In this document: one piece after another, positions 13,572-34,756 of the stretch | How positions within the stretch are numbered: the first letter of the stretch is position 1 | Layout: every line of letters begins with the position of its first letter | Source: Lysobacter enzymogenes | GTDB lineage: Bacteria > Pseudomonadota > Gammaproteobacteria > Xanthomonadales > Xanthomonadaceae | Direction of reading: 5' to 3' | Length of the DNA stretch: 64,000 nucleotides | Assembly: GCF_900106525.1 (NCBI RefSeq) | Contig: NZ_FNOG01000006.1 | Location: 129,390 to 193,389, forward strand | Made by a program: the position numbers and the translations under genes | Notes under the pieces: model-generated | Seen by the model: only the letters and a program-made list of their open reading frames with translations | Database searches by the model: none | Told to the model about the DNA's origin: nothing

Positions 13572-14282
13572 CTAGGCCGACGGCCACACCCGCAGGGCGG
13601 TGCGCAGCACCGCGCGCAACTGCTCCGCGCTGGCGCCGTCGCGGGCCTGGATCGACAGGCCTTGCAACACCGTCGACAGGAACTTGGCCAGCGCCGCCGC
13701 GTCCGCGTCGGCGGCCACGTCGCCTTCGCGTTGGCCGCGCTCGATCCGCGCGCGAAAGCCGGCCTCGATGCCGGCGCGGTGCGCGCCCAGCACCTCGCGC
13801 AACTGCGCGGCGGCGGCGCCGAGGCCGCCGGTCTCGGCCGCCACCAGCATGCAGCCCGAGCGGTCAGGACAGGCGGCGAAATCGCCGGCGAGCGCGTCGA
13901 ACAGGCGCGCGAACGCCTCGCGCGCGCTCAGGCCGGGCGCGGCCAGCGCGGCGCCGCGCTCGCTGCGGAACCGCTCCAGGTAGCGCTGCAGCGCGGCGCG
14001 GAACAGGTCGTCCTTGCTGCCGAACGCGGCGTACAGACTCGGCGCGGCGACGCCGATGGCGGCGGTCAGCTCGCTCATCGAGGTGGCTTCGAAACCGCGC
14101 TGCCAGAACATGCGCATCGCCGTTTCCAGCGCCTGCTCGCGGTCGAAGCCGCGCGGCCGGCCGCGCGGGCGGCGCGGTGCGGGTGTGTCGCTCGCGGGCG
14201 CCGCGCAAGCCGCGTCGTCGCCGCCGGCAGCGGGCGCAGGCGAGCCGCCGAAGCGCTCCGAATTCGCAACACCGAATTTCAT
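13572..14282 (-). CDS. TetR/AcrR-family transcriptional repressor
   Basis: A 236-residue regulator. After a disordered Ala/Pro/Arg-rich leader of about 45 residues comes the TetR DNA-binding domain (GFDREQALETAMRMFWQRGF ... MSELTAAIGVAAPSLYAAFG), then an all-helical ligand-binding domain with CMLVAAETGG. It is divergent from the DUF1993 gene across 128 bases. A 30-bp dyad overlapping its own start codon is a likely autoregulatory and target operator. The leader may mean that translation begins downstream, but there is no good internal ATG before the HTH. Confidence 0.85.
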   Translation of the reverse strand: MKFGVANSERFGGSPAPAAGGDDAACAAPASDTPAPRRPRGRPRGFDREQALETAMRMFWQRGFEATSMSELTAAIGVAAPSLYAAFGSKDDLFRAALQRYLERFRSERGAALAAPGLSAREAFARLFDALAGDFAACPDRSGCMLVAAETGGLGAAAAQLREVLGAHRAGIEAGFRARIERGQREGDVAADADAAALAKFLSTVLQGLSIQARDGASAEQLRAVLRTALRVWPSA

Positions 14283-14302
14283 AGCGATCGATAGTAAATT
14301 CG
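14273..14302. promoter_or_regulatory. Candidate TetR operator dyad
   Basis: An interrupted palindrome centred at 14287.5. CGAATTT (14273-14279) pairs with AAATTCG (14296-14302), and the same centre carries a perfect CGATCG core with extra TA/TA matches. It covers the tetR start codon and abuts TTGACC (14303-14308), which could be the -35 of the DUF1993 gene. The common symmetry axis makes chance less likely. Confidence 0.6.
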
Positions 14303-14410
14303 TTGACCCGTGCCGGGCAAGCGCTCAGACTCAGCCGGCCCGCGTAGCACGCGGGCGTTCCCAGCGTCGTTTCCCCGCCACGCTTCACGCCAGGAAAACC
14401 AGGAAACCCC

Positions 14411-14920
14411 ATGAGCCTTTCGCTCTACGACATCTCCGTGCCCGCGTTCCAGCGCGGCCTCGACGTGCTCTCGCACCTGCTCGAGCAGGGCGTCGCCCAC
14501 GCCCAGGCGCAGGGCCAGGATCCCGCGCAGTTGCTGACCGGCCGGCTGGCGCCGGACATGTACACCCTGATCGGCCAGGTCCAGTCGGCCAGCGACGCGG
14601 CCAAGTTCGGCGCCGCGCGCCTGGCCGGGATCGCGCCGCCGAGTTTCGCCGACACCGAGACCACGCTGGAAGAACTGCGCGAGCGCATCGCCAAGACCCA
14701 GGCGTTCCTGAGCACGGTGACCCCGCAGAGCATGGACGGCCAGGAAGAGCGCGAGATCGTGATCCGCCCCGGCGGCCGCGAACTCACCTTCGTCGCCCGC
14801 GACTACATCCGCGGCTTCGTGCTGCCGAACTTCTATTTCCACCTCACCACCGCCTACGGGATCCTGCGCCACCTGGGCGTGCCGCTGGGCAAGATGGATT
14901 ACCTGCGCGGCGCGGCCTGA
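14411..14920 (+). CDS. DUF1993 family protein
   Basis: A 169-residue protein matching the DUF1993 family in length and segments (SLYDISVPAFQRGLDVL at the start, TFVARDYIRGFVLPNFYFH and TAYGILRHLGVPLGK at the end). Its helical fold recalls DinB-like four-helix bundles. The function is uncharacterised. GGAAACCCC precedes the ATG. The divergent TetR gene and the shared dyad suggest inducible expression, perhaps by a small organic compound. Confidence 0.85.
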   Translation: MSLSLYDISVPAFQRGLDVLSHLLEQGVAHAQAQGQDPAQLLTGRLAPDMYTLIGQVQSASDAAKFGAARLAGIAPPSFADTETTLEELRERIAKTQAFLSTVTPQSMDGQEEREIVIRPGGRELTFVARDYIRGFVLPNFYFHLTTAYGILRHLGVPLGKMDYLRGAA

Positions 14921-25690: not shown

Positions 25691-25766
25691 GGGGCCATAG
25701 CTCAGCTGGGAGAGCGCCTGCATGGCATGCAGGAGGTCGCCGGTTCGATCCCGGCTGGCTCCACCA
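25691..25766 (+). tRNA. tRNA-Ala (anticodon GGC), copy 1
   Basis: 76 bases fold into a complete cloverleaf. The acceptor GGGGCCA pairs with TGGCTCC, the anticodon loop ATGGCAT reads GGC, the T loop is TTCGATC, and CCA is encoded. It is identical to the copy at 25988. Confidence 0.95.
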
Positions 25767-25824
25767 ACTCTTCGAACGCGTGAAAGGGTTTCGAAAAGTT
25801 TCGCGGTTACTCCAAACCAGTTTT

Positions 25825-25900
25825 GTCCCCATCGTCTAGAGGCCTAGGACATTACCCTTTCACGGTAGCGACCGGGGTTCGAATCCCCGTGGGGACGCCA
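25825..25900 (+). tRNA. tRNA-Glu (anticodon TTC), copy 1
   Basis: 76 bases, acceptor GTCCCCA with TGGGGAC, anticodon loop CTTTCAC reading TTC, T loop TTCGAAT, encoded GCCA end. It lies 58 bases after tRNA-Ala copy 1 in the same transcript and is identical to the copy at 26122. Confidence 0.95.
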
Positions 25901-25987
25901 CACACTAAAACCCCCTGGCCACGCGGATAGATATTGAAGCCCTGCGATTTTGGGGTTTCATCGCGACACCCAGAGTTTCCAGCGCGT

Positions 25988-26063
25988 GGGGCCATAGCTC
26001 AGCTGGGAGAGCGCCTGCATGGCATGCAGGAGGTCGCCGGTTCGATCCCGGCTGGCTCCACCA
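25988..26063 (+). tRNA. tRNA-Ala (anticodon GGC), copy 2
   Basis: An exact duplicate of copy 1, 297 bases downstream. The flanking TTTCCAGC-CGT sequence immediately 5' is also shared with copy 1, marking the left edge of the duplicated unit. Confidence 0.95.
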
Positions 26064-26121
26064 ACTTTTCGAACGCGTGAAAGGGTTTCGAAAAGTTTCG
26101 CGGTTACTCCAAACCAGTTTT

Positions 26122-26197
26122 GTCCCCATCGTCTAGAGGCCTAGGACATTACCCTTTCACGGTAGCGACCGGGGTTCGAATCCCCGTGGGGACGCCA
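26122..26197 (+). tRNA. tRNA-Glu (anticodon TTC), copy 2
   Basis: An exact duplicate of the first tRNA-Glu. The 58-base spacer from tRNA-Ala copy 2 differs from the first spacer at a single position near its start. It is followed by a strong terminator. Confidence 0.95.
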
Positions 26198-28028: not shown

Positions 28029-28880
28029 CTAGACGAACGAGGGCACGCGTTCCAGTACGCCGCCGGCGTAATCGCGTTGGAACGGCAGGTCCGGGCGGTG
28101 GGCGTAGCCGATGTAGCAGTCGCAGCGCGCGTTCGGGCAGGCGCGCGCGCGCAACTGCGCGGCGAAGCTGCCGTCGTAGAGGTTGCCCAGCGGCTCGGAC
28201 ACGAAATGGCAGCGGCGCACCTCGCCGTCGCCGTCGACCGAGACTACGTTCTCGCCGGTCAGGCAGGGCGCGCCGAAGCTCGGCGGGGGCGCGAGGTTGT
28301 AGCGGAAATGCGCGTCGATGGCCTCGATCCGGGCGATCTGGGCGGCATCGTAATAGTTCGGCGGGCGCGGGTCGAAGGCGTTGACCCACATCGGCGTCGC
28401 CGCCGGCAGCTCGCGCCGCATCGCCTCGATTTCGTCGAGGTCTTCGATCAGCCCGACCATGCCGACGCTGTGGCGCACGCCGCGCCGGCTCAGTTCGCGG
28501 CAGCGGGCGAGGAAGGCGGCGCGGGTCACCTGGGTCGGGTGGTAGGTGCACCACAGCGCGAGCTTGTCCAGGTCGGCCTGGTCGAGCCAGCGCAGGCCGA
28601 CGCACAGGTTGGTCTGGATCGCGGCCCGTCGCACATGCGGCATGCGGCTCAGCGCGACCAGGGCGTCGCGGTAGTGGCGGCGCACCAGGCCCTCGCCCCA
28701 GGGGGTGAACAGCACCGACAGCTCCATGCGCTGCTGCCCGGCCCATTCGACGAAGCGGGCGAGGTCGGCGGCGTCGCGGCGCAGCGCCTCGCGGCTGTCG
28801 TAGGTCTTGGCGAACGGGCAGTAGCCGCAGTCGTAATTGCAACTGCTCAGGCGACCGCGATAGAGCAGGGACAGGTGCAT
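28029..28880 (-). CDS. STM4011-family radical SAM protein
   Basis: A 283-residue radical SAM enzyme. The 4Fe-4S motif CNYDCGYC places cysteines at 14, 18 and 21, very near the N-terminus. The barrel continues with LFTPWGEGLVRRHY and WCTYHPTQV. The C-terminal third has five further cysteines (PCLTGEN, RRCHF, ACPNARCDCYIGY), suggesting an auxiliary Fe-S cluster as in SPASM/twitch proteins. It is the last gene of the operon, starting 3 bases after the STM4012-like stop. The family is named after Salmonella STM4011 and, to my knowledge, has no assigned substrate. Confidence 0.85.
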   Translation of the reverse strand: MHLSLLYRGRLSSCNYDCGYCPFAKTYDSREALRRDAADLARFVEWAGQQRMELSVLFTPWGEGLVRRHYRDALVALSRMPHVRRAAIQTNLCVGLRWLDQADLDKLALWCTYHPTQVTRAAFLARCRELSRRGVRHSVGMVGLIEDLDEIEAMRRELPAATPMWVNAFDPRPPNYYDAAQIARIEAIDAHFRYNLAPPPSFGAPCLTGENVVSVDGDGEVRRCHFVSEPLGNLYDGSFAAQLRARACPNARCDCYIGYAHRPDLPFQRDYAGGVLERVPSFV

Positions 28881-28883
28881 GCG

Positions 28884-30260
28884 TCAGCCCAGGCGGTAGT
28901 CGCGCATGCGTTCGACGATGGCGGCCGAAGCCAGCCACGGGCCGATGGTGTCGGCGCGGGCGAGGCCGGCGTCGGTGAGTTCGATCAGCTCGCCGTTTTC
29001 CACCGCCAGCGCGTGTTCGAACAGTTCGCGCAGCTGCGGCAGCTGCTCCAGGCAGTCGGCGCCGAAGCGGCGGCGATAGTCGGCGCGGTCCAGGCCGGGG
29101 CGGATCAGCAGCGACTGGATCGCATGCCGGCGCCGGCGCTCTTCCTCGCCCAAGGCGATGCCGTAGTCGGCGGCGGCGAACGAGGCGGCGTCGCGTTCCA
29201 GGTAATGATCGAGGATCTCGGCGACGCTGCGCCGGGCTACCCCATACTCGCTGGAGTAATGCAGGGTCGAAGTGTACGAGCGCGCGCCGCAGCCGATACC
29301 GACCATGCCGTCGCTCTGGCAGCAGTACACCGGCGCGGCGATGTCGGGCGCGTGCGGCGCGCGGAACATGCGCATCGACACCTGCTCGTAGCCGGCGGCG
29401 AGCAGGCGGTCGCGGCCGGCTTCGTACAGCGCGAGGCGTTCGTCCATCGGCTCGGCCTGCAAAGGCAGGCGCGTGCCGGCCTTGGCTTCGATCCGGCCCA
29501 GGCCGGTCAGCGGGCGCACGTACAGCGGATACAGATACAGCTCCTGCGGGCGGTGTTCGAGCGCGCTGTCGATCGAGGCGAGGAAGCTGGCGACGGTCTG
29601 CCCGGCGATGCCGTAGATCAGGTCGAGGTTGAGCGTGGCGATGCCGGCGGCGCGGATCGTAGCGATGGCCTGCTCGACCACGGCGCGCTGCTGCGGCCGC
29701 ACCAGCGCGCGCACTTCGGCCTCGCTGAAGCTCTGGATGCCCATGCTGACCCGGTCGATGCCGCGTTCGCGGCACAGCGCCATTTTTTCCGCGTCGACGG
29801 TTTCCGGCGAGACTTCGATGCCGGCCGGGATCGCGCGCAGGTCGATGCGGGCATGGCGCTCGACCATGTCGAACAAGCGCCGCAGCTGCGCCGCATCGAG
29901 ATAGCTCGGGGTGCCGCCGCCGATGGCGAAGCGAACGAAGCGGTGCTCGCCGAGCGCCTCGCAGGTCGCGCGCAGCTGCTGCTCCATCTGTGCGAGGTAG
30001 CGCTCGACCTTGGCCGGTTCCGGCCGCGCCAGCGCGAACAGGTTGCAGAAGCCGCAGCGGTAGCTGCAGAACGGCACGTGCAGGTACAGGAACAGCGAAT
30101 CGCGCGGCTCGCCGGCCCACAGCTCGCGCAGGCCGCGCGGCGGCTGCAAGGGGCGGTAGGCGGTCTTGTGCGGATAGGAATACGAATAGGCCTGGTACGG
30201 CGGCAGCCGCAACAGGTCGCTCAGGCTCGGTGCGGCGGTTTGGTGGACGACGGCGTTCAT
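28884..30260 (-). CDS. STM4012-family radical SAM protein (HemN/HemW-like)
   Basis: A 458-residue radical SAM protein related to coproporphyrinogen dehydrogenase-like enzymes. The cluster motif CSYRCGFC puts Cys at 65, 69 and 72, and it lacks the fourth Cys of true HemN. GGGTPSYLDAAQLRRLF and GIQSFSEAEVRALVRPQ are HemN-superfamily hallmarks. A C-terminal HemN_C-like helical domain follows (about 370-450). The start ATG at 30260 overlaps the STM4013-like stop by 4 bases, and the longer frame to 30980 is rejected. It is unlikely to serve haem synthesis in this context. Confidence 0.85.
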   Translation of the reverse strand: MNAVVHQTAAPSLSDLLRLPPYQAYSYSYPHKTAYRPLQPPRGLRELWAGEPRDSLFLYLHVPFCSYRCGFCNLFALARPEPAKVERYLAQMEQQLRATCEALGEHRFVRFAIGGGTPSYLDAAQLRRLFDMVERHARIDLRAIPAGIEVSPETVDAEKMALCRERGIDRVSMGIQSFSEAEVRALVRPQQRAVVEQAIATIRAAGIATLNLDLIYGIAGQTVASFLASIDSALEHRPQELYLYPLYVRPLTGLGRIEAKAGTRLPLQAEPMDERLALYEAGRDRLLAAGYEQVSMRMFRAPHAPDIAAPVYCCQSDGMVGIGCGARSYTSTLHYSSEYGVARRSVAEILDHYLERDAASFAAADYGIALGEEERRRRHAIQSLLIRPGLDRADYRRRFGADCLEQLPQLRELFEHALAVENGELIELTDAGLARADTIGPWLASAAIVERMRDYRLG

Positions 30261-31090
30261 GGATCGATAAAGAAATGCGCGTAGGGCACGGTCATCACTG
30301 TGTCGTGGGCGAGGCGATGGCCGTGGAAGCCGTCCTCGCCGTAGGCGGTGCCGTGGTCGGAGCAGACGATGGCGAAGGCGCCGCCGCGCGCGCGCAGCGC
30401 GTCCAGCAGCGGCGCCAGCGCGGCGTCGACGTAGCGCAGCGCGGCGCGATGGCTGGCGTAGCCGTCGGCCTGCGCGCCGGGCAGGTAGTGGCGGTTGGGT
30501 TGGTGCAGGGCGGAGACGTTGATGAAGACGAAGCACGGCGTATCGCGCGCCTCGTCGCTGCCCAGGCGCTCGCAGGCCAGCGCGACCTGGCGCTGCGTCG
30601 AGTCCGCAGCGGTCACGCCCAGGCCGGGATGCCAGTGGCTTTCGTCGAACAGATCGGGAAACTGCGAGCCCAATGGGTTGCGCTTGTTGAAGAAGCCGAC
30701 CCCGCCGATGCAGATCGTGCGATAGCCGGCGTCGCGCAGGCCCGAGACGATGTCGGCGCGGTCGCGGAACACGTGGGTGCCGGTGGCGGTGGTCTCGCTG
30801 CCTTCGAACTCCAGCGCGAACAGGCGCGGATGCGGCCCGGGCCGCGCCGGCGTGGGCAGGAAGCCGGCGAAGAACGCGGCGTGCGCGGCGTAGGTGAAGC
30901 TGCCGGGGGTATGGCGGCGTTCCCAACCCAGCGAGTGCAGATGCGCGGACAGCACCGGCAGTTCGCCGCGCTCGAAGCATTCCTGCGCGGCGTCGTAGCG
31001 CAGCGTGTCGAGGGTGATCAGCAGCAGGTCGCGCTGGCCGACCACGGCGCGCATGTCGGGATTGTCATAGCGGGCGCCGGGCTCAGGCAT
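30257..31090 (-). CDS. STM4013/SEN3800-family hydrolase (alkaline phosphatase superfamily)
   Basis: A 277-residue metal-dependent hydrolase or transferase. It has the N-terminal metal motif LLITLDTLRYDA, a nucleophile-region TPGSFTYAAHAAFFAGFLP as in sulfatase-like enzymes (Thr or Ser rather than Cys), and the C-terminal metal motif CSDHGTAYGEDGFHGH. It could act on a sulphate, phosphate or phosphonate ester or transfer a phospho-group. Its start overlaps the STM4014-like stop by 8 bases. It has no signal peptide, so unlike periplasmic sulfatases it appears cytoplasmic. Confidence 0.83.
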   Translation of the reverse strand: MPEPGARYDNPDMRAVVGQRDLLLITLDTLRYDAAQECFERGELPVLSAHLHSLGWERRHTPGSFTYAAHAAFFAGFLPTPARPGPHPRLFALEFEGSETTATGTHVFRDRADIVSGLRDAGYRTICIGGVGFFNKRNPLGSQFPDLFDESHWHPGLGVTAADSTQRQVALACERLGSDEARDTPCFVFINVSALHQPNRHYLPGAQADGYASHRAALRYVDAALAPLLDALRARGGAFAIVCSDHGTAYGEDGFHGHRLAHDTVMTVPYAHFFIDP

Positions 31091-32249
31091 GGACGGGCTC
31101 CGGCGCGTGCGGCGCAAGCGGCGCGTCGGGCGCGGGCACCGCGCGCAGCAGGGCTTGGTCCTGGTAGGTGCTCAGGCCCTGCCAGGGCAGGTCGAGCAGC
31201 AGGTCGCCGAAGGCGTTGGCTTCCAGCACCCAACTGCGGCCCTCGCGCAGGATCAGGTCGAAACCGATCATGCGGCTGCGCGGGAACGCCATCGCCGCCT
31301 GTTGGGTCGCGGTTTCCAGCGCGTGCATGGCGGCATCGTCGAGCCAGTGCGCCAGCGCGCCGCGGCGGTTGCCCAGGTGCAGATTGGTCAGCGGGCCGCG
31401 GCCGACGCGGGCGACGCGGTGGCGCAGGAAACCGTCGAGCGCGACCGCGCGGATGTCGTAATGCGCGCCGCCGTAGCGATCGCCCTGGCTGCCGGGCGCG
31501 CGCGGCTTGGGAATCCAGCGTTCGACGTAGGCGCCCTGCGCGGCGATCGCGTCGATCAGTTGGGCGATGCGCGCGCCGTCGTCGTAGCGGCGCGGCTTGA
31601 GCGAATTGAACACCCGCGTGCGACCGCCGTCTTCGCTCAGCTCGGCCGAGCCATAGGCGGCTTCGCGCCCGCTGCGGTTGCGCCGGTACGCCAGCACGCC
31701 GGCGCCGGAGGAGCCGTATCGGGCCTTGACGAAGACTTGCCCGGCGTCGTGTTCGCGCAGCAGCGTTTGCAGCGATTCGTAGCCGTCGATTTCGCCCAGC
31801 AGCGGCGGGATCGCGATGCCCTGCGCGCGCAGGCGACGCTGGCAGGCGAGCTTGTCGCTCATGCCGGCGATGTCGTCGGGCGGGTTCAGATAGCCGGCGC
31901 GCGCGGGCAGGGCCTGCAGCAGTTCGCGAAAGCCGGCGTACCAATGGTGCTGGTGGGCCAGCTCGCCGTGTTCCAGCGGCTGCGGCGGCGCGCCGACGGC
32001 GCCGAGCGCGCGCCAGCCGCGTTCGATCAGCGCCGCGTGCAGGGCCGGCGCCTCGCCCGGCGATTCGATCTTGACCAGCGCGCGCGGCCGCGCAGCGATC
32101 TGCTCGGCCGCGCGTTGCGGCGCGGCGAGCAGGTCTTCGTAATGCAGCTCTTCGGCCGCGGCCACGCCGCGCTCGCGCAGCGCCTGTTGCAGCCCGCGCA
32201 GGCGACGGCTGCCGCGCGGGCCGATCAGCAGCCAGGCCGGCGGGGTCAC
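31083..32249 (-). CDS. STM4014-family ATP-grasp protein
   Basis: A 388-residue protein with an ATP-grasp fold. An N-terminal Rossmann-like domain (WLLIGPRGSRRLRGL) is followed by the ATP-binding Lys and glycine loop VFVKARYGSSGAGVLA at about 175, and the metal-binding end MIGFDLILREG...VLEANAFGDLL near 350. ATP-grasp enzymes usually form carboxylate-amine or carboxylate-thiol bonds through acyl phosphates, so this is the probable ligase of the pathway. The start is GTG at 32249, 4 bases after the STM4015-like stop. The substrate is unknown. Confidence 0.83.
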   Translation of the reverse strand: MTPPAWLLIGPRGSRRLRGLQQALRERGVAAAEELHYEDLLAAPQRAAEQIAARPRALVKIESPGEAPALHAALIERGWRALGAVGAPPQPLEHGELAHQHHWYAGFRELLQALPARAGYLNPPDDIAGMSDKLACQRRLRAQGIAIPPLLGEIDGYESLQTLLREHDAGQVFVKARYGSSGAGVLAYRRNRSGREAAYGSAELSEDGGRTRVFNSLKPRRYDDGARIAQLIDAIAAQGAYVERWIPKPRAPGSQGDRYGGAHYDIRAVALDGFLRHRVARVGRGPLTNLHLGNRRGALAHWLDDAAMHALETATQQAAMAFPRSRMIGFDLILREGRSWVLEANAFGDLLLDLPWQGLSTYQDQALLRAVPAPDAPLAPHAPEPVHA

Positions 32250-32253
32250 GTCC

Positions 32254-33165
32254 TTACTCGGACACCGCCACGTAGCGGTCGCCGTCGTCCTCTTCTTCCG
32301 GATCGTCCAGCACCACCGCGCACGGCAGCGCGCGCAGCTTGGCCTGCCATTCTTCGGAGATGTAGTGATGGCTCAGATCGATGCGCTCCAGCGCGCCCAG
32401 GTGCGGGCTTTCGGCCAGCGCCTGCGCGCCGGCGTCGCCGATGGTGCCCAGCGACAGGTCCAGGCTCTGCAGCGAGCCCAGCCACGGCTGTTGCGCCAGC
32501 CACACGGCCAGTTCGTCGCTGATTTCCGAATCGCGCAGGCCCAGGTAGCGCAGGCGCTCGGGGCCGATCTTGGCGAGCAGGTTCTGATAGTCGGCCAGGC
32601 TGCCGTCGAACCCGTAGTTGTCGCTGCCCAGCCACAGCTCCAGATGCTTGAGCGCGGGCAGGGTGGAGCCGGCGACGGCGTCGACGATCTTGCTCGGCAG
32701 GCCGCCGCATTCGATCGCCAGTTCCTCCAGCGCGGCGTGCGAGAACGCCTGCAGCTCCAGGTTGGTCGAGCCGCGCACGCGCAGCGACTGCAGTTGCGGG
32801 TAGGCGGCCAGCAGCGGGTTGTAGGAGGTCTGGATGATCCAGGAGACCTCGCAGTCCTCGTAGGTCATGTCGCCGACGAACAGGGCGTTGAGCTTGGGCA
32901 GACGGGCGCGGTATTCGATCAGCGCGTCGAGGTAGCCCTGCGGGCCTTCGTCGTGGGCTTCGCTCCACGGGCCGACGATCAGCGTTTCCAGGCCGGCCGG
33001 GTCGACCTTGGCGAGGAAGTCGTCGAGCAGGTCGCGCTGGCTCTCTTCGCTGTCGTAGTCCTGAGTCAGCCGGTAGACCACGTCGCCGCCGTCGGGCGTG
33101 GCGCCCATGCGGAATTCGACGACGCGTTTGCCGCGGTAGATCTGCGAGTACTCGCCGATGGTCAC
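32254..33165 (-). CDS. STM4015-family leucine-rich-repeat protein
   Basis: A 303-residue protein whose centre and C-terminus carry degenerate leucine-rich repeats of about 23-28 residues (LPKLNALFVGDMT, YPQLQSLRVRGST, LPALKHLELWLGS, LRYLGLRDSEIS, LQSLDLSLGTIG, LERIDLSHHYIS), with an acidic tail rich in Glu and Asp. No signal peptide or catalytic motif is seen, so a scaffold or substrate-recognition role for the operon enzymes is plausible. It is the first gene of the five, with a GTG start at 33165, and the promoter must lie in the 85 bases before the family A repeat. Confidence 0.82.
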   Translation of the reverse strand: MTIGEYSQIYRGKRVVEFRMGATPDGGDVVYRLTQDYDSEESQRDLLDDFLAKVDPAGLETLIVGPWSEAHDEGPQGYLDALIEYRARLPKLNALFVGDMTYEDCEVSWIIQTSYNPLLAAYPQLQSLRVRGSTNLELQAFSHAALEELAIECGGLPSKIVDAVAGSTLPALKHLELWLGSDNYGFDGSLADYQNLLAKIGPERLRYLGLRDSEISDELAVWLAQQPWLGSLQSLDLSLGTIGDAGAQALAESPHLGALERIDLSHHYISEEWQAKLRALPCAVVLDDPEEEDDGDRYVAVSE

Positions 33166-33249
33166 GTGGGGCTCCTTGCCTGCGTTGGTAAACGAGGGCG
33201 AAGCATACCTAAGGAGCGAGGACTGTTGTAACCATCGCCGGCGGGCGGC

Positions 33250-33356
33250 TTTTGTGGGAGGGGCTTCAGCCCCGATGCTTTTCGCTCAGGTCGCGACGAT
33301 CTGACACAAAAGCATCGGGGCTGAAGCCCCTCCCACAAAAAAGCCCCTCCCACAAA
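33250..33356. repeat. Family A inverted repeat, copy 2 (most intact)
   Basis: Perfect 33-base arms (33250-33282 and 33308-33340) of TTTTGTGGGAGGGGCTTCAG... flank a 25-base spacer. A truncated third arm, AAGCCCCTCCCACAAA, follows to 33356. It ends against the gntP-type stop at 33359, so it could act as its terminator. Confidence 0.9.
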
Positions 33357-33358
33357 CG

Positions 33359-34756
33359 TCAGACCAGGCCGGTGGCGTAGAACGTCGCGATCACCACGAA
33401 CACCGCCGCGGTCTTGATCAGGGTGATCGCGAATACGTCCTTGTAGGCCTGGCGGTGGCTCAGGCCGGTCACCGCCAGCAGGGTGATGACCGCGCCGTTG
33501 TGCGGCAGGGTGTCCATGCCGCCGGAGGCCATCGAGGCCACGCGGTGCAGCACTTCCATCGGGATGCTGGCGGCCTGGGCGTTGGCGATGAAGGTTTCCG
33601 ACATCGCCGCCAGGGCGATGCTCATGCCGCCGGAGGCCGAGCCGGTGATGCCGGCCAGGGCGGTCACCGTCACCGCTTCGTTGACCAGCGGGTTGGGAAT
33701 CGCGCCGAGCGCGTTGGCGACCACCAAAAAGCCCGGCAGCGCCGCGATCACCGCGCCGAAACCGTATTCGCTGGCGGTGTTCATCGCCGCCAGCAGGGCG
33801 CCGCCGATGGCGGCCTTGCTGCCTTCGGCGAAGCTTTGGGTCACCGGCTTCCAGGCGAACGCCAGCACCGCGGCGATGCCCAGCAGCAGCGCGCCTTCCA
33901 CCGCCCAGATCGCGGCGATCTTGGACACGTCCTGGACCACCGGCGCGGCGTCGCCGATCACCGCCGGGTCGAAGCTGTGCTGCTTGCCGTAGGCCTGCGG
34001 CAGCCAGGTGCTGAACAACTTGTTGGCCACGCCGACCACGACCAGCGGCGCGATCGCCACCAGCGGGTGGGCGAGCTTGCCGCCGGCGAACGGCGCCGGC
34101 TCGTTGAGCAACTGCGTGCCGTAGCCTTCGCCGGCCTTGAGCGCGGCGCGGCGGCGCCAGTTCAGATACGCAAGGCCGACGATCAGGATGAACACGCCGC
34201 CGATGGTGCCCAGGATCGGCGCGGCCCAGGTGTCGGTGCCGAAAAACGCGGTCGGGATGATGTTCTGGATCTGCGGCGTGCCCGGCAGCGCGTCCATGGT
34301 GAAGGTGAACGCGCCCAGGGCGATGGTGCCGGGGATCAGCCGCTTGGGGATGTCGCTCTGGCGGAACAACTCGGCGGCGAAGGGATACACCGCGAACACC
34401 ACCACGAACAGCGACACGCCGCCGTAGGTCAGCAGCGCGCACACCGCGACGATGGCGAGCATGGCGCGTTCGCGCCCGACCAGGCGGATGGTCGCGGCGA
34501 CGATGGATTTGGAAAAACCCGAAGTCTCGATCAGCTTGCCGAAGATCGCGCCGAGCAGGAACACCGGGAAATACAGCTTGAGGAAGCCGACCATCTTGTC
34601 CATGAACAGGCCGGTGAACATCGGCGCGACCAGCGACGGATCGGTCAACAGCACCGCGCCCAGCGCCGCCACCGGCGCGAACAGGATCACGCTGTGGCCG
34701 CGGTAGGCGACGTACATCAGGAAGCACAGCGCGGCCAGCACGATCAAAAACGCCAT
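33359..34756 (-). CDS. GntP-family permease
   Basis: A 465-residue inner-membrane permease with about 12 hydrophobic helices, matching the GntP (gluconate:H+ symporter) family. Visible blocks include VSLFVVVFAVYPFAAELFR, the conserved FTFTMDALPGTPQIQNIIP, LLAAMNTASEYGFGAVIA, and TGSASGGMSIAL near the C-terminus with MASGGMDTLPHNGAVITLL. Members transport gluconate, and related proteins transport 3-hydroxybutyrate and other hydroxy acids. With PHB-oligomer hydrolase and PHA synthase genes nearby a hydroxy-acid substrate is possible, but no catabolic gene is adjacent. Confidence 0.85.
   Translation of the reverse strand: MAFLIVLAALCFLMYVAYRGHSVILFAPVAALGAVLLTDPSLVAPMFTGLFMDKMVGFLKLYFPVFLLGAIFGKLIETSGFSKSIVAATIRLVGRERAMLAIVAVCALLTYGGVSLFVVVFAVYPFAAELFRQSDIPKRLIPGTIALGAFTFTMDALPGTPQIQNIIPTAFFGTDTWAAPILGTIGGVFILIVGLAYLNWRRRAALKAGEGYGTQLLNEPAPFAGGKLAHPLVAIAPLVVVGVANKLFSTWLPQAYGKQHSFDPAVIGDAAPVVQDVSKIAAIWAVEGALLLGIAAVLAFAWKPVTQSFAEGSKAAIGGALLAAMNTASEYGFGAVIAALPGFLVVANALGAIPNPLVNEAVTVTALAGITGSASGGMSIALAAMSETFIANAQAASIPMEVLHRVASMASGGMDTLPHNGAVITLLAVTGLSHRQAYKDVFAITLIKTAAVFVVIATFYATGLV

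Follow-up and report, generated by a model that had tools for sequence, protein, structure and literature searches.

RimK, LysX/ArgX, MptN and CofF are ligases that extend a terminal glutamate. The acceptor of RimK on ribosomal protein S6 is the protein's C-terminal Glu, and LysX/ArgX act in the LysW carrier pathways, whose other enzymes are LysZ, LysY, LysJ and LysK (kinase, reductase, aminotransferase and deacylase). Pearlin carriers are loaded by an aminoacyl-tRNA-dependent ligase (PEARL). According to PMC9303977, the pearlin/3-thia-amino acid system combines C-terminal, carrier-tethered chemistry with a radical S-adenosylmethionine (SAM) enzyme. Here we analysed a 64,000-nucleotide stretch of the 6.26 Mb genome of Lysobacter enzymogenes (contig NZ_FNOG01000006.1, positions 129,390 to 193,389; hereafter the window), which carries a five-gene operon of the families STM4011 to STM4015. 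The main new fact is that the leucine-rich-repeat (LRR) protein of this operon, STM4015, has a near-invariant terminal Glu and is encoded beside an ATP-grasp ligase, STM4014, that in most searches groups with the terminal-glutamate ligases.

The operon occupies positions 28029-33165 of the window, with its genes contiguous in the order STM4015-STM4014-STM4013-STM4012-STM4011:

32254..33165, minus strand: STM4015, LRR protein, GTG start; NF038076, 325 bits against a cut-off of 275
32257..32277, minus strand: C-terminal heptapeptide R297-Y-V-A-V-S-E303 of STM4015, with the terminal Glu303 as proposed modification site
31083..32249, minus strand: STM4014, ATP-grasp enzyme, GTG start; NF038074, 322 bits against a cut-off of 175
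30257..31090, minus strand: STM4013, alkaline-phosphatase-superfamily hydrolase, ATG start; NF038075, 385 bits against a cut-off of 250
28884..30260, minus strand: STM4012, radical SAM enzyme, ATG start; NF006067, 580 bits against a cut-off of 380
28029..28880, minus strand: STM4011, radical SAM enzyme, ATG start; NF038073, 372 bits against a cut-off of 200

Starting from STM4015, 4 bases separate the first two genes, the next two junctions are overlaps of 8 and 4 bases, and 3 bases separate STM4012 from STM4011. The original prediction, made from the letters of the window alone, had placed five tightly packed minus-strand genes here (gaps or overlaps of 3-8 bases) and matched them to the STM4011-STM4015 families; coordinates and packing are confirmed, and all five proteins score above their own NCBIfam cut-offs. 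Among the matches listed, the nearest named relatives of STM4011 are from Lysobacter (80-81% identity). The original prediction had also known of no assigned function, and we likewise found no functional study of the STM4011-STM4015 system, nor of the structure 2ra8/Q64V53, in the open-access literature. The locus names turn up in two papers, STM4013 as one of the sigma54 binding sites tabulated in PMC3844500 and STM4015 as a line in a selection table (PMC2784778).

STM4015 is an acidic LRR protein of 303 amino acids. Its AlphaFold2 model has a predicted local distance difference test (pLDDT) score of 91.6, and its best fold match is 2ra8 (E-value 1.1e-18), a solved relative from B. fragilis. 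Conserved residues of the LRR body include W109, G180 and Y184. In a Bacteroides homolog (L038 4513-5583) an N-terminal WGR domain is also present (Pfam, 6.1e-18). Among 205 STM4015 proteins with distinct C-termini, Glu is the very last residue in 204; the set is made up of complete open reading frames (ORFs) of at least 100 amino acids and at least 100 bits, with identical last 150 residues removed. This residue was invariant already in a first alignment of 14 sequences. Glu ends all 113 complete copies listed and all 28 STM4015 proteins of the window's family (probably the Xanthomonadaceae), among them that of the window itself; in a further Streptomyces-family set, taken at a 60-bit threshold, it ends 71 of 73. 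Below the thresholds of the 205-member set lie two short fragments ending in E (L226 and L239) and a 60-bit LRR protein ending in H (L230). In 2ra8 the aligned Glu is residue 354 of a 362-residue chain, whose final eight residues we assume to be a tag.

The commonest tail residues are R-[YF]-[VTI]-[AES]-V-[SGA]-E, usually RYVAV[S/G/A]E, and 199 of the 204 Glu-ended tails have Tyr or Phe at the fifth position before their last residue. Deviating tails are still Glu-ended (YMNAMYTE in Salmonella, WYYPMITE in Bacteroides and RYPSLTE in Paenibacillus). The tail is preceded by an acidic linker of variable length, and the C-terminus lies 52 to 71 residues beyond an LRR landmark (located in 96 of 112 sequences). 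The terminal Glu is encoded by GAG in 141 cases and by GAA in 63, and all three stop codons occur next to it. Over 25 pairs of tandem paralogues, mean identity is 53% for the bodies and 72% for the last seven residues. For the other four operon proteins, the commonest last residue reaches only 16-50% in the same loci, a comparison made without the divergent minus-strand STM4015 copy of L039, which ends in E. As controls, six complete non-STM4015 LRR ORFs of the Gemmataceae genome G541, picked by motif and with one cut ORF uncounted, end in residues other than E. Searched as a DNA pattern, the tail occurs once in the window's genome, at STM4015 (reversed control, 0); over 11 genomes it is found at STM4015 in 10, is absent from G548 and has one extra occurrence elsewhere in G499 (reversed control, 1 match). 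The constraint on the tail acts on the protein and at its terminus.

The ATP-grasp enzyme STM4014 was compared with its relatives at several levels. After their own family, 33 members match the NCBIfam models RimK_fam (32 members), LysX_arch (22), MptN (20), rimK_rel (15) and CofF (10). The best profile matches in the Protein Data Bank (PDB) are RimK and LysX, and the structural ranking is headed by ArgX-LysW, LysX and LysX/ArgX with LysW-gamma-AAA, followed by RimK. By the majority of searches, Pfam being an exception, the nearest relatives of STM4014 are RimK, LysX/ArgX, MptN and CofF. The relationship is distant: the window's STM4014 scores 12.6 bits against the 143.4-bit cut-off of RimK_fam (TIGR00768) and lies well under the LysX/ArgX/RimK equivalog cut-offs. 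The net charges of the two proteins also differ, with a median of -9.5 per 100 amino acids for STM4015 and +1.3 for STM4014 (sequences not de-duplicated), and electrostatic recognition of this kind is used by LysW-type systems according to PMC9303977.

Because 204 of 205 tails end in Glu and the ATP-grasp enzyme groups in most searches with terminal-Glu ligases, we favour the LRR protein as the substrate. We give an even chance to the operon being a maturation system for STM4015, modified at its terminal Glu, and we infer each of its reactions. STM4014 would activate a carboxylate of Glu303 as an acyl phosphate and join it to an amine, for which an amino acid such as glutamate is the likeliest candidate. 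STM4011, with an auxiliary cluster, and STM4012 would then alter the tethered residue or the neighboring RYVAVxE tail, and STM4013, as a metal-dependent phosphoesterase or phosphodiesterase, would trim a phospho group or free the product. STM4015 would thereby serve either as a carrier, like LysW in the amino-group-carrier pathways, with possible release of a product from it, or as a permanently modified LRR protein.

The arrangement of paralogues bears on this last choice. In two loci of the Streptomyces family (L223 and L221), five or six tandem STM4015 genes lie upstream of one enzyme set. Tail-bearing STM4015 genes also occur on stretches without enzyme genes (L222, L224 (twice), L225, L227, L232, L233 and L235), and the genomes with such unlinked copies carry one STM4011 over the cut-off. 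Genome G578 has eight STM4015 copies in all, each Glu-ended. One enzyme set can thus, judging by these gene counts, serve up to eight tail-bearing LRR paralogues. Tandem and unlinked tail-bearing paralogues share one enzyme set, and for a carrier alone a repertoire of diverged LRR bodies would be superfluous; this tips the balance slightly towards several LRR proteins being permanently modified. A bolder version, which we consider doubtful, is that up to eight LRR proteins per genome are given a group made by the radical SAM enzymes at their C-terminal Glu, so that the LRR would pick the partner and the tail would bear the chemistry, all through one shared enzyme set. In the boldest form STM4012 would work as HemN does on its porphyrinogen's propionates, its target being the propionate-like side chain of either the terminal glutamate or the added one. 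In L223, which belongs to G578, an ORF at 14056-14601 between STM4013 and STM4012 resembles, by eye, an ECF sigma factor.

The remaining three proteins were examined for catalytic features. STM4013 is an alkaline-phosphatase-superfamily hydrolase (PF00884 in all 33 members, PF01663 in 30), in which D28, T66, H196, D245, H246, H258 and H262 are invariant in 33 sequences. By profile it is nearest to nucleotide pyrophosphatase/phosphodiesterase (NPP) enzymes (2.1e-6), with an arylsulfatase close at 3.7e-6. The nucleophile position holds the invariant Thr66, with neither Cys nor Ser in the 33 sequences, and aligns to a Thr of the NPP chain that we take to be the NPP nucleophile; a formylglycine sulfatase is therefore unlikely. 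STM4012 is a full-length relative of HemN (1olt, 4.4e-57) and also matches the methyltransferase NocN (9p2u, 3.8e-36). The HemN-like radical SAM motif that had been read from the window, Cys65/69/72, is invariant in 33 STM4012 sequences. Identity with HemN or HemW was rejected on scores of 140 bits vs 325 (TIGR00538) and 155 bits vs 205 (TIGR00539). A weak PADLOC match of STM4012 to the candidate defence model PDC-M51A (8.9e-11, residues 96-248) probably reflects the shared radical SAM fold, and the other six proteins given to PADLOC had no match. In STM4011 the CX3CX2C motif (Cys14/18/21) and five C-terminal cysteines (Cys206, 224, 248, 253 and 255) are invariant in 34 sequences, and the C-terminal region matches SkfB (6efn, E-value 3.6e-4) with a SPASM/twitch-like Cys cluster, which bears out the Cys-rich C-terminus noticed earlier. 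Weak matches to peptide-maturase models are seen in several STM4011 members. In a Bacteroides plasmid record STM4011 and a HAD phosphatase form one fused protein (L038 6965-8527), and two Salmonella records have a HAD phosphatase gene that overlaps the STM4011 end (L037 7834-8568; L045 7834-8568).

Conservation of the operon was assessed in 13 loci from plasmid records and the best 80 of 420 species-genome matches, of which 87 had enough flank and six were excluded as too short upstream. In 85 of the 87 loci the set of five is complete, with gene order and strand unchanged; the loci span at least six phyla: Pseudomonadota, Actinomycetota, Deinococcota, Bacillota, Bacteroidota and Planctomycetota (the last through a Gemmataceae genome that we assign to this phylum). 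Such constancy of content and order in 85 of 87 loci exceeds chance; the five genes form a real conserved unit, and the co-occurrence of the five families, which the original prediction had left to be checked, holds. The two exceptions are L038, the Bacteroides plasmid, in which STM4013 is reduced to its start and STM4012 to its end, as if by internal deletion, and L082 (genome G544), in which STM4014 lies outside the operon, elsewhere in the same genome. The relocated STM4014 of G544 is directly behind a truncated STM4015 that retains an F-V-V-V-G-E end.

Within the window's family, STM4011 scores over its cut-off in 28 of 247 genomes. In 52 of these genomes, comprising all 29 with an STM4011 match above 100 bits and 23 others, STM4015 is over its cut-off in exactly the same 28. 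Another 47 genomes of the family have weak STM4011 matches only (about 19-24 bits), which are taken as other radical SAM proteins. In G525 (162.6 bits; L245 7453-8961) only the C-terminal half of STM4011 is left, 71% identical, and the other four genes are absent from the 16 kb fetched; this is a decayed operon in a genus in which others retain it. In the Streptomyces family, STM4015 is over its cut-off in 51 of the 101 genomes sampled, and STM4014 in 48 of the 51 STM4015-positive genomes and in none of 20 tested among the 50 negative ones. Among 299 genomes drawn over the phylum, STM4015 is over its cut-off in the window's genome only, with one other at 33.6 bits. The complete genomes of E. 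coli gave no near match to a 4012-base Salmonella stretch.

The neighbourhood of the operon was searched for a precursor-peptide gene. Among ORFs of at least 80 amino acids, clustered over those loci from L033 to L125 that exceed 8 kb, there was no conserved precursor gene; the clusters found in more than 10 loci are, as judged by position and strand, antisense shadows of the operon genes and of DUF6745, and the DUF6745 pair is the only conserved addition to the operon in this size range. No gene for a protease or an exporter recurs in more than 10 of the clustered loci. Among 1939 ORFs of 20-79 amino acids in 88 loci, taken from a span that begins 2.5 kb upstream and ends 2 kb downstream of the operon, the widest cluster covers 7 loci that are closely related by their names. 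A short precursor gene beside the operon was thus rejected in both size ranges, and the earlier remark was that none of the five genes themselves encodes an obvious one. In 49 of 87 loci DUF6745 is a neighbour of the operon, always with a partner of about 100 amino acids (once the partner occurs without DUF6745) that bears the motif GE[VL]TGH[SA]H and has no Pfam match in the two proteins scanned. Examples of the pair are:

L033 424-2046: DUF6745 and its partner of about 100 amino acids
L034 7890-9187: the same pair
L035 1316-2641: the same pair

Because the window's close relatives are without it, this pair is not part of the operon core. In the window itself, a palindrome like those of repetitive extragenic palindromic sequences lies upstream of the operon (33220-33370), with the 23-base core GGGAGGGGCTTCAGCCCCGATGC, which has 180 occurrences in the window's genome (91 + 89, up to 2 mismatches; reversed control, 0). 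At 25691-26197 a tRNA-Ala(ggc)-tRNA-Glu(ttc) pair occurs twice in tandem.

Several observations weigh against a ligase of the RimK or LysX type acting on the terminal Glu of STM4015. In structural alignments STM4014 is only 15-18% identical to RimK and LysX. After its own family, the window's STM4014 is best matched by a PurK-type model (E-value 0.002), ahead of RimK-type models (0.05-0.07), and, in Pfam, ATPgrasp_ST (32 of the 33 members), YheC/D (23) and ATP-grasp_3 (18) are matched more often than RimK (8). Glutathione synthetase, PurK, DcsG and Ddl are only 1-3 Z units behind RimK and LysX, and the graspetide ligase PsnB is the rank 4 Foldseek match. Of the tails, that of the diverged STM4015 of G567 ends in V, the sole exception in a set of 205 that includes close relatives and is not independent. 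Strong terminal preferences are also found in other proteins of these loci, since STM4012 has Met at position -7 in 84%, the companion of about 100 amino acids ends in Asp in 98% of 49, and DUF6745 ends in Thr in 88% of 50. In the AlphaFold2 model the pLDDT is 84 for residues 291-300 and only 50 for residues 301-303; since the former are placed fairly confidently, the tail may be partly packed on the LRR body. Finally, the other three of the 51 STM4015-positive genomes of the Streptomyces family (G555, G572 and G612; L237, L243 and L244) have a Glu-ending STM4015 without an STM4014 or STM4011 over the cut-off.

The tail could also be the core peptide of a pathway similar to those of ribosomally synthesized and post-translationally modified peptides (RiPPs). 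STM4011 and STM4012 would crosslink or methylate Tyr, Val or Glu, STM4014 would form a graspetide-type macrolactam or lactone, and the modified peptide would then be cut off. The likeness of the STM4011 C-terminus to the RiPP maturase SkfB, the weak peptide-maturase matches, the NocN match of STM4012, the PsnB match of STM4014 and the aromatic residue five positions before the terminal Glu are all in line with such a pathway. However, among the families shown, the graspetide-type model GRASP_SAV_5884 is matched by only 1 of 33 STM4014 members, no protease or exporter gene recurs in more than 10 of the loci clustered, the tail has by eye no consistent Ser/Thr/Lys-plus-acid ring pattern, and the terminal Glu is the one nearly invariant tail position. 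We consider this pathway unlikely.

It is also rather improbable that the Glu-ended tail only recruits the maturases while the chemistry takes place elsewhere on STM4015 or on a third partner. Tail and linker do resemble a short linear motif, tail-bearing paralogues occur away from the enzymes, and the LRR body has conserved residues of its own (W109, G180, Y184 and others), but an exact terminal residue in 204 of 205 sequences in our judgement exceeds the usual need of a docking motif, and the operon's own ligase has relatives that use a terminal Glu as acceptor. The original prediction had left the substrate between a metabolite and the LRR protein itself. The second option is the one supported by the Glu ends and the ligase grouping; a free small metabolite, made by the two radical SAM enzymes, the ligase and the hydrolase with the LRR protein as passive scaffold, now seems very unlikely. 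The enzyme content is compatible with such a product, as are the HAD phosphatases fused to or overlapping STM4011, but this reading leaves unexplained both the terminal Glu and the presence of five or six tail-bearing LRR genes in tandem for one enzyme set.

With STM4015 as the proposed substrate, the operon can be compared with known systems. The gene set occurs across phyla, and in half of the sampled Streptomyces-family genomes going by STM4015, yet has placeholder names only: all five proteins are above the NCBIfam STM4011-STM4015 cut-offs and keep the same gene order, but the model names carry no function. If the terminal Glu does serve as acceptor, substrate, residue and first enzyme have names, and the pathway can be tested straight away. 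If LRR proteins are in addition armed with a group at their tails, this would be a bacterial protein-arming system. The C-terminal Cys cluster region of STM4011 is like that of the SkfB-type radical SAM/SPASM RiPP maturases, but here no conserved short precursor gene was found and the candidate substrate is a folded LRR protein. A link to RimK and S6 is the weak RimK_fam match of 32 of 33 STM4014 members; the differences are the proposed LRR substrate, the further enzymes and a score far below the RimK_fam cut-off. With the pearlins and 3-thia-amino acids made on carrier peptides, the operon would share protein-tethered C-terminal chemistry including a radical SAM enzyme, whereas its ligase is an ATP-grasp enzyme. 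The LysW-LysX/ArgX carrier pathways, in which the amine is joined to the gamma-carboxylate of the terminal Glu, are alike in that STM4015 is an acidic partner with a nearly invariant C-terminal Glu; their ATP-grasp ligases are also nearest to STM4014 by PDB profile, fold and NCBIfam member counts, although Pfam ranks other ATP-grasp families first. They differ in that STM4015 is an LRR protein of about 300 amino acids rather than a small LysW, and in that the other enzymes of the operon are radical SAM enzymes and a phosphoesterase. If the proposed maturation is correct, protein-tethered chemistry, as known from LysW-type carriers and pearlins, would gain a system whose radical SAM enzymes act on a folded LRR protein.

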